NCBI RefSeq assembly: GCF_900115975.1
Contig: NZ_FOYM01000017.1
Coordinates: forward strand, 1-64,000
Source: Desulfoscipio geothermicus DSM 3669
GTDB lineage: Bacteria > Bacillota > Desulfotomaculia > Desulfotomaculales > Desulfallaceae
Direction: 5' to 3'
Length of the DNA stretch: 64,000 nucleotides
Positions 19,391-35,336 of this stretch are shown piece by piece. The position numbers and the translations under genes were made by a program. Below the pieces are notes generated by a model that searched no databases, was not told the origin of the DNA, and saw only the letters and a program-made list of their open reading frames with translations. Every line of letters starts with the position of its first letter. Position 1 is the stretch's first letter.

Positions 19391-20425
19391 TTAAATCACG
19401 TGTGTGGAAGAACTGTTAAAACCGGCCCATAAATTGTCACCTACAGTGATTGCCGTTTCTTTGACAAACCGGGTGGTGGCAAAACATACCAGAGGGATCC
19501 CGATGTCAATGGTTATTTTGGATAGCGCGCCCTGGTTGCTGATATTTAATACTTTCCCGTTAAACTGGTAGTGATAGCACAAATCAAAAGGTTCCTTGGA
19601 TAAGGCAATATCTTCGGGGGGGACAGCCACCTTTACTTTTCCTTGCTTGCCGGTATTTACAAATATGTCTACGTCCGGGGCTAAAGAAACCTTGTCGTCG
19701 TTTACTTGCCCTTCAAAAATATTTTCTATTCCCACAAAGCTGGCTACGAAATCGTTCTGTGGTTTGTAAAAAATTTCCTGCGGCGTTCCCACCTGAATAA
19801 TTTGACCCTGGTGCATGACTCCAATTTTATCTGCCAGGTACATTGCTTCATTAAAGTCATGGGTTACGTGCAAGGTGGTTGTTTTCAGGGTTTGATGAAT
19901 TTTTTTCAGTTCCTCCTGGAAATTTTCCTTGGAACGGGGGTCCAGGGCGCTCAAAGGTTCGTCCAGTAAAAGTATTTCCGGAGAAATGATCAAAGCTCTG
20001 GCCAGCGCCGTTCTCTGCTGCTCGCCTCCGCTTAGGGTGGAAGGGTGCCGGTTCAGCAAGTGACCGATACCTAGCATGGCAACCAATTCATCTAATTTAC
20101 TTTTGATTATCTTTTTCGGGAGTTTGCGTATTTGGGCGCCAAAAATGATATTTTCTTTTACCGTTAGATGTGGAAAAAGCGCGTAGTCCTGATAAACAAA
20201 GCCTACTTTTCGTTGTTCCGGGGCAAGGGTCGCCAGGTTGCGTTCTTTAAACCGGATGGTGCCCTTATCCGGTCGATACATTCCCGCGATCGTTTCCAGA
20301 ATTACTGTTTTCCCGGTACCGGTGGGGCCGAGTATGATAAAATATTCTCCTTCCTGTACTTCCAGGTTGATATCTAACAGCTGAAATTCTCCCAATTTTA
20401 CGGTGACATGTTCCAATCTGAGCAA
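19391..20425 (-). CDS. Molybdate/tungstate ABC transporter ATPase (WtpC/ModC-like)
   Basis: This 344-aa ATPase has Walker A GPTGTGKT, the Q-loop in VYQDYALFPHLTV, signature LSGGEQQR, Walker B LLLDEPLSALD and H-loop HVTHDF. A C-terminal TOBE-like region (about 270-340) is the oxyanion-sensing domain in ModC and WtpC. Walker A GPTGTGKT is the form seen in WtpC-like subunits. It is the last gene of a minus-strand operon with permease, binding protein and DUF364 protein, under riboswitch control. Tungstate is favoured over molybdate only by context. Confidence 0.83.
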   Translation of the reverse strand: MLRLEHVTVKLGEFQLLDINLEVQEGEYFIILGPTGTGKTVILETIAGMYRPDKGTIRFKERNLATLAPEQRKVGFVYQDYALFPHLTVKENIIFGAQIRKLPKKIIKSKLDELVAMLGIGHLLNRHPSTLSGGEQQRTALARALIISPEILLLDEPLSALDPRSKENFQEELKKIHQTLKTTTLHVTHDFNEAMYLADKIGVMHQGQIIQVGTPQEIFYKPQNDFVASFVGIENIFEGQVNDDKVSLAPDVDIFVNTGKQGKVKVAVPPEDIALSKEPFDLCYHYQFNGKVLNISNQGALSKITIDIGIPLVCFATTRFVKETAITVGDNLWAGFNSSSTHVI

Positions 20426-20440
20426 CTTTCAATATCCCCC

Positions 20441-21256
20441 TTAACTACCCAACCGTGAGTGCTCCAGCTGGTTTCCCCCCAAATATTGAAATATAAATAG
20501 AGAAATTACTGAGATCAGTATGAGGATTGTTGCCGCCGCCATGGCCAGTTCGAGATCACCGGTGGACATGTTTAAAAACAATGAAACAGGGAGGGTTTCC
20601 GTTTTTAAACGGGTGGCGCCCGCCAGCATAAGGGCTGCGCCGAATTCCCCCAGCGCCCTGGCCCACGTGATCACCACCCCGGCTAAAATACCGTTCTTGG
20701 CCAGGGGGAGTGTAACCTGGCAAATGGCTTGGATTCGGTTGCAACCCAGGGTTCGGGCGACAAATTCAATGCGCGGATCGATATTTTCAATTACCGCCTT
20801 GAGTACCCGCAGCATATAAGGCACATTGACAAAAAATTGAGCCAGGATAATCCCTTGAACGGTAAACACAAAATTTAGACCGGCATTGATCAAAAAACGT
20901 CCGAAATCGGAGTTCCCGAACAGAATCAGCAATGCCACGCCGGATACTATTGGCGGCAAAGCCATGGGGACTTCCAATATTGTATTGACCAGTTTTTTGC
21001 CCGGAAATGGCAAACGAACCATACCGTAGGCGACAGGGACGGAAAAAACTATGCACATTAAAGTAGAGATTATCGAGGTGTAAAAGCTCAGCTTTATGGC
21101 AAACCGGATCTCTTCAATCAACAGACTCGTTAAAAGATTCGGCAATCCCCTGGTCAATACCATGGAAATAGCCAGGATGATAAATCCGGTCAGTATTGCA
21201 ATACATAAAGCGATAAAGGCGTTAAATAATATATTGATACTATTTTTGTTTTTCAC
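20441..21256 (-). CDS. Molybdate/tungstate ABC transporter permease
   Basis: A 271-aa membrane protein with about six spans and the binding-protein-dependent transport fold. The EAA-type loop (ARTLGCNRIQAICQVTLPLA) and the WARALGEFGAALMLAG segment are typical of ModB/WtpB/CysT permeases. It forms the homodimeric channel energised by the ATPase encoded 15 bases downstream. No anomaly was seen. Confidence 0.85.
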   Translation of the reverse strand: MKNKNSINILFNAFIALCIAILTGFIILAISMVLTRGLPNLLTSLLIEEIRFAIKLSFYTSIISTLMCIVFSVPVAYGMVRLPFPGKKLVNTILEVPMALPPIVSGVALLILFGNSDFGRFLINAGLNFVFTVQGIILAQFFVNVPYMLRVLKAVIENIDPRIEFVARTLGCNRIQAICQVTLPLAKNGILAGVVITWARALGEFGAALMLAGATRLKTETLPVSLFLNMSTGDLELAMAAATILILISVISLFIFQYLGGNQLEHSRLGS

Positions 21257-21282: not shown

Positions 21283-22080
21283 CTATTCCACCGGCTTAAA
21301 ACCATGTTTCTGAAAAATCTCTTTTCCTGCAGCGGAAGCCGTAAAATCAACGAATTGCCTGGCCAACTCCATTTGTTGAGAGTTTTTAATTACGCAAACA
21401 GGGATAGTTTTAATCATATTTTTTTCTTTGGGAATTTCAATAACCTCTATTTCTTCAGCCGCCAGGGCATTGTCTTCCCAGATTATGGACGCGTCTGCCT
21501 GTTTCATGCTCAGGTAAACCACCAGTTCATTAACGGTCGCGGCTTTTGCTACCGTGTTACGGGCCACGGATTCTTTCAGATTGTTTTCTTCCAGCAGTTT
21601 TTGAGCCAGTTTGCCGATGGCCGCAGATTTTTCATCAGCTAAAACCACCCGGACATCTTTTTTGCCCAGGTCTGCCAGACTTTTTATATTGGCGGGGTTA
21701 CCCCGGGGCACGCCGATTACGGGTATATGATAGGCCACATCTTTTTTTTCATCAACCAAACCTTTTTCTTTAGCTAAATCGTAGTAATATAAAGACCCGG
21801 GCACATACACATCTCCCTTGCCGCTGAGCTCAATTTGGCTAAGGTTTTGCGCCGATCCTGCATAGGAATAATGTACTTTGACGCCGAATTTTTCTGTGAA
21901 TAGTTTACCAATTTCGTCCATGGGCTTGCGCAGGCCGGCGCCGCTGTACACCTGCAGGGATCTAGTTTCCGTTTTGACTGCTTTATTGTCATCCTGGCTT
22001 GATGTGCTGCTGCCGCAGCCGGTCAGGGCAATAATCATCATCACTGCAATAATAAATATTGAGAGCCGTTTAACCAGCAT
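21283..22080 (-). CDS. Molybdate/tungstate-binding lipoprotein (ModA/WtpA-like)
   Basis: At 265 aa this has a lipoprotein signal (IIALTGCGSS, Cys ~22), then the ModA-type fold: LQVYSGAGLRKPMDE with the oxyanion-binding serine, HYSYAGSAQNLSQIE, DVYVPG, VGVPRGNPANI-like and the IWEDNALAAEEIEVIEIP region. It captures molybdate or tungstate outside the cell. ATG follows AAAGGAG. In family terms ModA-like proteins cannot be split into Mo- and W-specific forms by eye; the cofactor context suggests W. Confidence 0.82.
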   Translation of the reverse strand: MLVKRLSIFIIAVMMIIALTGCGSSTSSQDDNKAVKTETRSLQVYSGAGLRKPMDEIGKLFTEKFGVKVHYSYAGSAQNLSQIELSGKGDVYVPGSLYYYDLAKEKGLVDEKKDVAYHIPVIGVPRGNPANIKSLADLGKKDVRVVLADEKSAAIGKLAQKLLEENNLKESVARNTVAKAATVNELVVYLSMKQADASIIWEDNALAAEEIEVIEIPKEKNMIKTIPVCVIKNSQQMELARQFVDFTASAAGKEIFQKHGFKPVE

Positions 22081-22101: not shown

Positions 22102-22872
22102 TTAATGTCCGCAGTGGCAGTATTTCTGGCAGCCTGTAAAATACGCTATTCCAGCAACGGTCACCCCGTAAAAAACCACGGGCTTTTCTTTAAGGATGGA
22201 TTTGTAAGTATTGTTTACCAGGGTGCTGCCGGTAGCAAAAACGATATTACTCCAATTTAGCACTTCCTCCGTGTTATCGACGTGCTCGACCAGCACGCCG
22301 TACTTGTACCGGCCGACGTTTTCGGGGTCTAAATCGGTGACCCTGATGGGAAAATGCCGGGCCAGGTTATCTACCATGGCGGGCTGCAAGCCGATGAAAG
22401 CGATGCGGGGGCAGGTGGATATCTTTTCAACGTATTTCACCAGGTTACGTGCGCATTCTTCGGGTTCTTCGTTTTTGCAGTGAACGGTGCGGTCAATCCA
22501 CTTCAAGTGCTTCAACACGGCGTTGATAGTGGCAATAAATATGGCGCGCTCAAAATTGTCGGACAGGCCAAGTTCCAGCACTTCCCGGACAGTGCCGCTG
22601 AACTTGCCCGGCATGTCGGTAAAGGCCTGGCCCACACCGTCCAGGAAACGGGCTTCGATCATTACTTCCCGGCCTTTTACCAGGGGAAAATCCTGCCGTT
22701 CGGGATTGCCGATGGATTCTTCGGGCGACAGGGTGCGCGCTGATACAATATGTACCTCCCGCTCCAGAAGTCCGTATTCTTCCGATATTTGTCGCAGTTT
22801 TTCCTGTAATCTGTCGTAGGTCAGTTCATCAAGCCGGATACTACGGAAATGCTTGTCATTACCGTTCATCAA
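22102..22872 (-). CDS. DUF364 (putative heavy-metal chelation) protein
   Basis: This 256-aa protein consists of an N-terminal DUF4213-like part (LTYDRLQEKLRQISEEYG, and later ERAIFIATINAVLKHL) and a Rossmann-like DUF364 domain (IAFIGLQPAMVDNLA, then VFATGSTLVNNT). The tail CQKYCHCGH is cysteine- and histidine-rich and could bind a metal. DUF364 genes often neighbour Mo/W or Ni transport and cofactor genes; the biochemical role is not established. It is the first gene of the transporter operon and directly follows the riboswitch-linked terminator. RBS AAAGGAGG. Confidence 0.8.
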   Translation of the reverse strand: MMNGNDKHFRSIRLDELTYDRLQEKLRQISEEYGLLEREVHIVSARTLSPEESIGNPERQDFPLVKGREVMIEARFLDGVGQAFTDMPGKFSGTVREVLELGLSDNFERAIFIATINAVLKHLKWIDRTVHCKNEEPEECARNLVKYVEKISTCPRIAFIGLQPAMVDNLARHFPIRVTDLDPENVGRYKYGVLVEHVDNTEEVLNWSNIVFATGSTLVNNTYKSILKEKPVVFYGVTVAGIAYFTGCQKYCHCGH

Positions 22873-22913: not shown

Positions 22914-22944
22914 ATAAAAAAAACCGGAGAACAAGACTCCGGTT
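22914..22944 (-). terminator. Riboswitch-linked terminator ahead of the DUF364-transporter operon
   Basis: On the minus strand AACCGGAG pairs with CTCCGGTT over a 7-base loop and is followed by eight T residues. It lies between riboswitch copy A and the DUF364 start, so it is the natural off-switch of an attenuator. Confidence 0.8.
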
Positions 22945-22985
22945 GGTAAAGCACATCAAAAACTGCCCTGCATAAGCAAAAGTAG

Positions 22986-23078
22986 GCTCCTTTCCAACCG
23001 GGAGGCGCACCGGTTTCCCCGTACACCCTGTCGTTCACGGACCATATCTCTAAAGACTTAGGCCCCATGAATCGGAGC
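22986..23078 (-). ncRNA. Moco/Tuco-type riboswitch, copy A
   Basis: The minus-strand RNA contains the conserved GGTGTAC...GCGCCTCCCGGTTGGAAAGG core that marks molybdenum/tungsten-cofactor (Moco RNA) riboswitches, closed by a terminal GCTCC/GGAGC helix. The closing helix changes sequence but keeps pairing in copies B and C. The element is short (~93 nt), which suits the tungsten-type (Tuco) variants that lack one helix (inference). The attenuator at 22914-22944 follows. Confidence 0.8.
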
Positions 23079-23099
23079 ATGAAATTAAATTGTAATTTG

Positions 23100-23138: not shown

Positions 23139-23155
23139 ATAAATCAACCGTACCA

Positions 23156-23259
23156 CCTCCTTTCCGCATCGGGAGGCACAGGCGTTTCCCCCTGCACCCT
23201 ACCGGTCCAAAAACCATAGCCAATATATCTTGAGCGCCTTAGGTTAAAGGACTCGGAGG
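23156..23259 (-). ncRNA. Moco/Tuco-type riboswitch, copy B
   Basis: Same core as copies A and C: a GGTAGGGTGCA segment, then GTGCCTCCCGATGCGGAAAGG, closed by CCTCC/GGAGG. It forms a tandem with copy A ahead of the DUF364-transporter operon, each copy followed by a terminator. Tandem cofactor riboswitches give a steeper or two-input response (inference). Confidence 0.8.
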
Positions 23260-23460
23260 AAATATTATTATTTGTCGGCAATTTTTTATATAATTCGCCA
23301 TTAAGTCTTAAGTTCCTGCACATCAACCCCTTTCGATTTTCATTTGCCGTATTTGTTAGGTCCGCATGCAAATGAAATTGAAGACGCGTACAAATTACAA
23401 AGGATAGCGGTTTGCTTGGCAGGTCCTGAAGCATTCAAAACATTCTGGAATATAAGGGGC

Positions 23461-23883
23461 TCACATTTTGTGACATAACGAAGTACGGGTGACATGCTTA
23501 ACCCTGGTTCTGCCGTGCTTGAGTTTCATATTTCCATACTTGTCACTGATGATGGCATAACCACTTGCCAATACTTTGGGGTCGTTTTTGATTTCGCCCA
23601 ATATGGCGTTGATTATTTTTTGCCTTACTTTCCGCTCATTTGTTTTGGCCGGGTAAAAAAAAGAAACGGCTGCATATCCGTAAGCATTTCTTTGTTCAAC
23701 CCTGACCAGCAGTCCGGCATCAGTTAATCTGTCGTAAACCAAGTAAGGATCAAATAGTCTACAATCCAACCCGCCAAATTTTTCACATATATCGTTGAGT
23801 ATTATTTCCCTTTCGTTATGTATGCCGGTAACCACTCCCGGCCTGAACAAAACAACAAAATTACCCAACTGGCTTTTTTTCAC
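23461..23883 (-). CDS. Unknown 140-aa protein under Moco/Tuco riboswitch control
   Basis: Not recognised. GTG start with AAGGAGGGG ahead. The protein is basic, mixed alpha/beta, without signal peptide or membrane span. Visible segments are NFVVLFRPGVVTGIHNER, FGGLDCRLFDPYLVYDRLTD (an N-terminal helix/strand unit), a YGYAAVSFFYP strand and a lysine-rich C-terminal half (ERKVRQKIINAILGEI). There are only two or three cysteines and no classical metal motif. It lies alone between riboswitch C and the tandem riboswitches, so its expression should follow Mo/W-cofactor level. That is the only functional clue. Confidence 0.75.
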   Translation of the reverse strand: MKKSQLGNFVVLFRPGVVTGIHNEREIILNDICEKFGGLDCRLFDPYLVYDRLTDAGLLVRVEQRNAYGYAAVSFFYPAKTNERKVRQKIINAILGEIKNDPKVLASGYAIISDKYGNMKLKHGRTRVKHVTRTSLCHKM

Positions 23884-23901
23884 GTCTGCCCCTCCTTGAA
23901 A

Positions 23902-23938
23902 GCAAAAAGCCCTTCATTGCGAAAAAGCAATGAAGGGC
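23902..23938 (-). terminator. Terminator of riboswitch copy C
   Basis: A perfect 12-bp stem (GCCCTTCATTGC with its complement, six-base loop) is followed on the minus strand by TTTTTGC. It stands between riboswitch C and the start of the 140-aa gene and is the strongest terminator of the three. Confidence 0.88.
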
Positions 23939-23960
23939 ATAGTTAACAATGCCTGCCATT

Positions 23961-24059
23961 CTCTTCTTTCCGCAATGGGAGGCGCACCAGTTTCCCGGTA
24001 CACCCTACCGGTCCGGCCGCCATGACGTAACCGCCTGCAGGCCTGCCGGACTCGAAGAG
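23961..24059 (-). ncRNA. Moco/Tuco-type riboswitch, copy C
   Basis: Contains GGTAGGGTGTACC, then GTGCGCCTCCCATTGCGGAAAG, closed by CTCTTC/GAAGAG. The closing helix differs from copies A and B by compensatory changes, which is good evidence for a conserved RNA fold. It controls the 140-aa gene through the strong terminator directly downstream. Confidence 0.8.
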
Positions 24060-24154
24060 TTAGTTTTTCTATAATATACTTTATAAAGAGTACTTTCCGC
24101 AATAGTGTTGAACAAATTTACCAGTAAACGGCGAGCCTGTTCATTTGCCGCGGT

Positions 24155-34946: not shown

Positions 34947-35029
34947 AAAAAGCGTGTATTTCGTTTTTTAAAACGATGGGCTGGACATTTTGTTCATTAA
35001 ATGTTAGTATATTCTTAAATTAAATAAGC

Positions 35030-35205
35030 TGTTCAGGTTCCCCCGCCTTGCGGGGGGGGGTGAAAAGGGAACCGGGTGCAAATCCCGGGCGGTCCGGCCA
35101 CTGTGAGTGGGGAGCGGTTCCCGAAATGCCACTGTCTGCGGACGGGAAGGCGGGAAACACGCTGTGAACCACAAGTCAGGAGACCTGCCTGGACGAAAGC
35201 ATGCA
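35030..35205 (+). ncRNA. Cobalamin riboswitch
   Basis: The leader shows the ordered elements of the AdoCbl/cobalamin aptamer: an AGGTTCCC start, AAAAGGGAA, GGTGCAAATCCC, the GCCACTGTGA core, a second ATGCCACTG, GGGAAGGCG and the B12-box-like AAGTCAGGAGACCTGCC at ~35173-35189. No gene follows it: bases 35206-35330 have only a small hairpin (GTGCCGC/GCGGCAC), then two terminators. The nearest gene, a DtxR regulator at 35572, lies past both. Confidence 0.9.
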
Positions 35206-35336
35206 GCCTTCCGCGCAAAGGCCAGGTGCTGTTTGAGGGATAGCGATAGACCCCGTGCCGCAATAAAGCGGCACCATCAGGGAATAAACGCGGGCGGGGA
35301 CCTCCGGCCTTTTGAAAAAACTATTCCATTAGTCAA

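Follow-up and report, generated by a model that had tools for sequence, protein, structure and literature searches.

Genomic Context of the 140-Residue Protein Gene

The window, as we term the whole 64,000-nucleotide stretch of DNA that was analyzed, carries on its minus strand a gene for a 140-residue protein (23461-23883 (-)), recognized as an open reading frame and by homolog searches which place it in a family of 17. Its GTG start codon sits 7 nt past a Shine-Dalgarno sequence, AAGGAGG, read directly at 23891-23897 (-), and ahead of both lies riboswitch C, a P3-lacking (Tuco-type) aptamer of the RF01055 Moco RNA family. An earlier sequence-only reading had placed this riboswitch at 23961-24059; in our cmscan analysis that region falls inside a match at 23947-24069 (-) which spans the full model (positions 1-135) and scores 61.7 bits (E 2.1e-12) as Moco RNA, above the gathering score of 36 bits that defines membership, with outer P1 pairs that are weak in the alignment. 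A promoter-like site just 5' of the aptamer (TTGCGG, 18 nt, TATATT; 24073-24102 (-)) is rated weak because it was recognized only by eye and was not picked up by a consensus scan. Downstream of the aptamer, a terminator scan and ViennaRNA folding identified an intrinsic terminator at 23909-23938 (-), in which the perfect 12-bp stem described in the sequence-only reading was recovered as 12 uninterrupted pairs, GCCCTTCATTGC/GCAATGAAGGGC, followed by the T run TTTTTGCTTT, with a folding energy of -22.2 kcal/mol. A possible antiterminator hairpin, predicted by ViennaRNA at 23929-23960 (-) with -9.4 kcal/mol, shares the 5' arm of the terminator. At the level of sequence, the two elements of a transcriptional OFF platform, a terminator and a putative competing antiterminator, are therefore present in the window, and similar overlapping pairs of hairpins are predicted in most of the other homolog leaders.

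The 140-residue gene is followed by riboswitches B (23141-23270 (-), 68.3 bits) and A (22971-23089 (-), 73.0 bits), a tandem pair of RF01055 RNAs which likewise lack P3, and by a terminator-like hairpin found in the terminator scan (22922-22944 (-)). This pair stands ahead of a DUF364/DUF4213 gene annotated as a “putative heavy-metal chelation” protein (22102-22872 (-); Pfam PF04016, E 4.9e-9) and of a molybdate/tungstate ABC transporter, which comprises a substrate-binding protein (21283-22080 (-); PF13531, and TIGR01256 modA with 93 bits, over the cut-off), a permease (20441-21256 (-); TIGR01581 with 242 bits, over the cut-off), and an ATPase nearest to WtpC (19391-20425 (-); NF040840 with 418 bits, just under the cut-off of 440). 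For the DUF364/DUF4213 protein, whose first structure paper proposed heavy-metal chelation or pterin/flavin chemistry (PMC2954201), this setting, after tandem Tuco-type RNAs and ahead of the molybdate/tungstate transporter genes, points to tungsten. Elsewhere in the same genome, a second RF01055 tandem pair lies directly ahead of tupA (L056, G000:C32:36141-38603 (-); tupA at C32:38001-37264, with an AOR-type gene at C32:36737-36141). The window also contains a cobalamin riboswitch (RF00174, 128.5 bits) at 35018-35206 (+).

The Protein Family and Its Distribution

As the sequence-only reading had held, the 140-residue protein belongs to no recognized family. The best Pfam match (GPP34, E 0.14) is at background level, and nothing near a cut-off emerged from Pfam, NCBIfam, PHROGs, or PADLOC, whether the query was a single member, 14 members, or one of three consensus sequences, while a PDB sequence search returned no significant chain (best E 0.93 by phmmer and 0.19 with a profile). 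A match to AhpC (E 0.003) extends over 27 residues only, is far under its cut-off, and was rejected as background. The same reading called the gene an orphan, which is correct in that no named family includes it but not in that homologs exist, in 17 genomes including that of the window. Because of these homologs, and because dN was well under dS in nine homolog pairs, the gene is not a product of chance but a member of a real family under purifying selection; dN/dS was approximately 0.1-0.4 in homolog pairs with finite dS, and the test is conservative since some pairs include a few codons ahead of the true start.

Family proteins are 130-144 residues long and share nine invariant positions (V11, F13, G20, E26, L59, F75, Y77, R87, and L95). 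They have no invariant Cys or His across the aligned family, and their hydrophobic stretches are all too short to be a membrane helix or signal peptide. Two AlphaFold predictions, with four sequences each, gave poor models (pLDDT 59 and 44; pTM 0.56 and 0.39). Fold comparison of the model with pLDDT 59 returned weak matches (best Z 5.4) to alpha/beta folds of a generic kind, and the best Foldseek match to a poor model had an E of 0.04. None of these matches, those to a ferredoxin-like or IS200 TnpA-like fold included, was significant, the generic ferredoxin-like ones were set aside, and no fold is claimed; sequence and structure-model searches identified no activity, fold, or ligand-binding site for the family. 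No mention of the family was found in the literature within reach of our search; the riboswitch class is known, and the protein family that it controls here appears to be undescribed.

A search with the single protein identified homologs in 14 of 60 relatives. With a profile they were found in 17 of 113 class genomes; the genome of the window is counted in both figures. In a phylum-level sample of 398 genomes, homologs were confined to the same order, with none outside the class; viral contigs and plasmids yielded no homologs. One copy, in a 72%-complete genome (G074), matches over part of its length only and looks broken or misassembled. As the family is missing from 96 of the 113 class genomes, most of them tungsten users, it is considered accessory. 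A contig search with one family subgroup identified three named loci, in Desulforamulus aeronauticus DSM 10349 (L032), Desulforadius tongensis DSM 29799 (L034), and an uncultured Desulfotomaculum MAG (L033), and the type strains among these carriers make experiments possible.

Linkage to Tuco-Type Riboswitches

Of the 17 family genes, 16 have an RF01055 RNA immediately upstream. The lone exception (L009/L047) is at a contig end, where the upstream 1 kb consists of poor sequence and the tail of an apparent IstB-type transposition protein, and its original leader was probably displaced by this transposon remnant. Carrier genomes have approximately 10.6 RF01055 RNAs and roughly 3,300 genes each, such that under random placement a given gene would stand behind such an RNA 0.3% of the time; the resulting p-value for the linkage, ~2e-39, comes from a naive model that takes no account of common descent and, given shared ancestry, is far too small. 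The linkage holds in no fewer than five gene neighborhoods and with two expression platforms, with most leaders having a terminator and two (L049 and L051) having the ribosome-binding site GGAAAGGAG inside the 3' strand of the aptamer, and the RNA directly ahead of the gene is the sole constant across differing neighbors. Carriers had more RF01055 RNAs per genome than non-carriers (means of 10.6 vs. 4.3). Unusually many of these RNAs, 16 to at least 27 per genome, were observed in genus g4 (G003, G011, G013, G014, and G015) and likewise in family f8 (G097, G098, and G104), some of these counts probably being lower bounds set by the search.

The proposal of the sequence-only reading, that the gene is a candidate new component of Mo/W metabolism, gains support from this linkage and is itself drawn from it: the leader scores as Moco RNA, and most homologs, in addition to standing behind RF01055 RNAs, adjoin Mo/W or Tuco-switched genes, so that neither of the two results that the reading would have counted against itself was obtained. 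On the basis of linkage, the 140-residue family is a candidate for a part in tungsten metabolism that we consider well supported.

The RNA had been described only as “Moco/Tuco-type,” which can be sharpened. P3 columns are deleted in the cmscan alignments of riboswitches A, B, and C, and in the homolog leaders a junction of 2-4 nt joins P2 to the AGGG-type segment. Because stem P3 is absent, all leaders are assigned by structure to the Tuco type, an assignment that in its published form is correlative, P3-less RNAs having been found to accompany tungsten-cofactor use and the rationale for them having come from operon content (Regulski et al., PMC2408646).

Neighboring Genes in Other Genomes

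Neighboring proteins of the family gene, identified with NCBIfam, vary by lineage and are, as annotated, mostly Mo/W-related. The tungstate-binding protein TupA is encoded beside the family gene in seven loci (L042-L046, L048, and L054), with scores of 215-245 bits on the TupA model, under its strict cut-off of 400; at L044 tupA and the family gene overlap by 4 bp, which suggests translational coupling. ModABC-like genes are found at L041 and L052, as a Mod/Wtp-like transporter is in the window, and a molybdenum-cofactor-synthesis-domain gene is the neighbor at L051. At L050 and L053, Mo-hydroxylase maturation genes lie upstream and an aldehyde dehydrogenase downstream. Furthermore, L048 (7741-14163 (+)) holds on one strand a riboswitch, the family gene, a 149-residue protein, an [FeFe] hydrogenase, two further proteins which by our own reading are of redox type, and an aldehyde dehydrogenase, a run that is possibly a W-free backup operon.

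Genome-wide presence of TupA or AOR did not significantly separate carriers from non-carriers (p 0.14 and 0.07, respectively). One clade of aldehyde dehydrogenases (at least 72% identity) in families f3 and f12 was present in 8 of 9 carriers vs. 0 of 8 non-carriers, with a p-value (4e-4) that overstates independence because adjacent genes are inherited together. In carriers this dehydrogenase is either behind an RF01055 RNA or in one gene run with the family gene, and no RF01055 RNA was found at clade orthologs in other genomes. This clade is missing from the window genome and from the remaining f1 members. A clade of L-glutamate-semialdehyde-type dehydrogenases was observed to be Tuco-switched only in carriers, its orthologs in other genomes lacking such an RNA (L057-L063 vs. 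L064-L073 and L075-L076). The association of the family with uptake of tungsten on the one hand and with W-free backup enzymes on the other fits a response to tungsten shortage.

A Proposed Role in Tungsten Shortage

To our knowledge, little is established about how tungsten is handled between its uptake and its insertion into enzymes. The reading that we favor, at a probability of roughly 60%, is that the 140-residue gene belongs to the Tuco regulon, is turned OFF by Tuco via its terminator, and encodes a small soluble protein which acquires, holds, or economizes tungsten in the cell. When Tuco is plentiful, it would bind the P3-lacking aptamer, the 12-bp terminator would form, and transcription would end short of the gene; under a shortage of tungsten or Tuco, the antiterminator would use the 5' arm of the terminator and the protein would be made, along with the adjoining genes for tungstate uptake or with the W-free aldehyde dehydrogenase in other genera. 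The protein would most likely act intracellularly upon tungstate or Tuco, a role we prefer because uptake genes are the commonest neighbors. Counting against the overall reading are the accessory distribution of the family, the non-significant separation of carriers by genome-wide TupA or AOR, the weak outer P1 pairs of riboswitch C, the correlative nature of the Tuco assignment, and the poor structure models. A narrower form, in which it is a dedicated handler made upon cofactor shortage, i.e., a carrier of tungstate or tungsten-pterin or a protein that matures tungsten enzymes, is put forward only tentatively.

We regard it as unlikely that the protein is instead a regulator, such as one that binds nucleic acids and, upon Tuco shortage, shifts the cell from W-dependent to W-free enzymes. 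Such a role would explain the linkage to both uptake genes and W-free enzymes, and most members are basic (pI 9.0-9.9 in 12 of 14), with Lys/Arg-rich tails in the window's subgroup; however, two members have a pI below 8, no DNA- or RNA-binding family was matched, and the best fold comparison was weak and generic. It is less plausible that the leader senses Moco rather than Tuco and that the gene belongs to molybdenum metabolism. Here the correlative basis of the Tuco assignment (PMC2408646) and the Mo-hydroxylase maturation genes adjoining some loci, of the XdhC and DVU_1551 types, have to be set against the lack of P3 in every leader and against TupA as the commonest neighbor.

Still more doubtful is the explanation that the protein takes part in a replacement pathway free of W, as a subunit or helper of, for example, the neighboring NAD-type aldehyde dehydrogenase, which would stand in for the W-dependent AOR. 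The distribution of the aldehyde dehydrogenase clade among f3 and f12 carriers, its RF01055 linkage or shared run in carriers alone, and the [FeFe] hydrogenase in the run at L048 are all in line with this explanation, but co-inheritance of adjacent genes inflates the apparent independence of that distribution, and in the window genome and other f1 members the family gene is beside uptake genes even though the clade is lacking. Finally, that the open reading frame is a mere passenger or leader peptide and the riboswitch serves other genes is very improbable: although other Mo/W genes follow at some loci, the window gene has its own riboswitch and terminator while the genes behind it are served by a tandem pair of their own, the position directly behind the RNA persists across different neighbors, and dN/dS is low.

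The family lends support to the idea that Tuco riboswitches govern a broader response to shortage, in which W-free backup enzymes take part alongside uptake. A family that has the Tuco switch as its only constant genomic companion also provides a short list of organisms in which the role can be tested and a gene to delete.

Comparison with Known Systems

Riboswitch C resembles the Moco/Tuco riboswitches of Regulski et al. (2008; PMC2408646) in scoring over the family threshold and, as in their Tuco type, in lacking P3, and it resembles known OFF switches of this class (RF01055, PMC2408646) in having a terminator after the aptamer. It differs in its target, since known RF01055 systems control known Mo/W genes whereas the gene behind riboswitch C encodes an unnamed protein family. 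Tandem Moco/Wco riboswitches have been described (PMC9481103), to which the pair at 23270-22971 in the window is similar, and the homologs at L041, L050, L052, L053, L054, and L055 also lie behind tandem pairs; riboswitch C, in contrast, is single and has its own terminator. With the tungstate uptake regulon (TupA, WtpABC, and ModABC) the family has Tuco-type leaders and adjacency in common, but unlike those proteins it shows none of the features of a transporter, signal peptide, or membrane protein, and it is unrelated to them in sequence. Lastly, the Tuco-switched aldehyde dehydrogenase found with the family in other genera recalls the control of cofactor-free isozymes by B12 riboswitches, a category of riboswitch target that is listed for B12 (PMC3766115).
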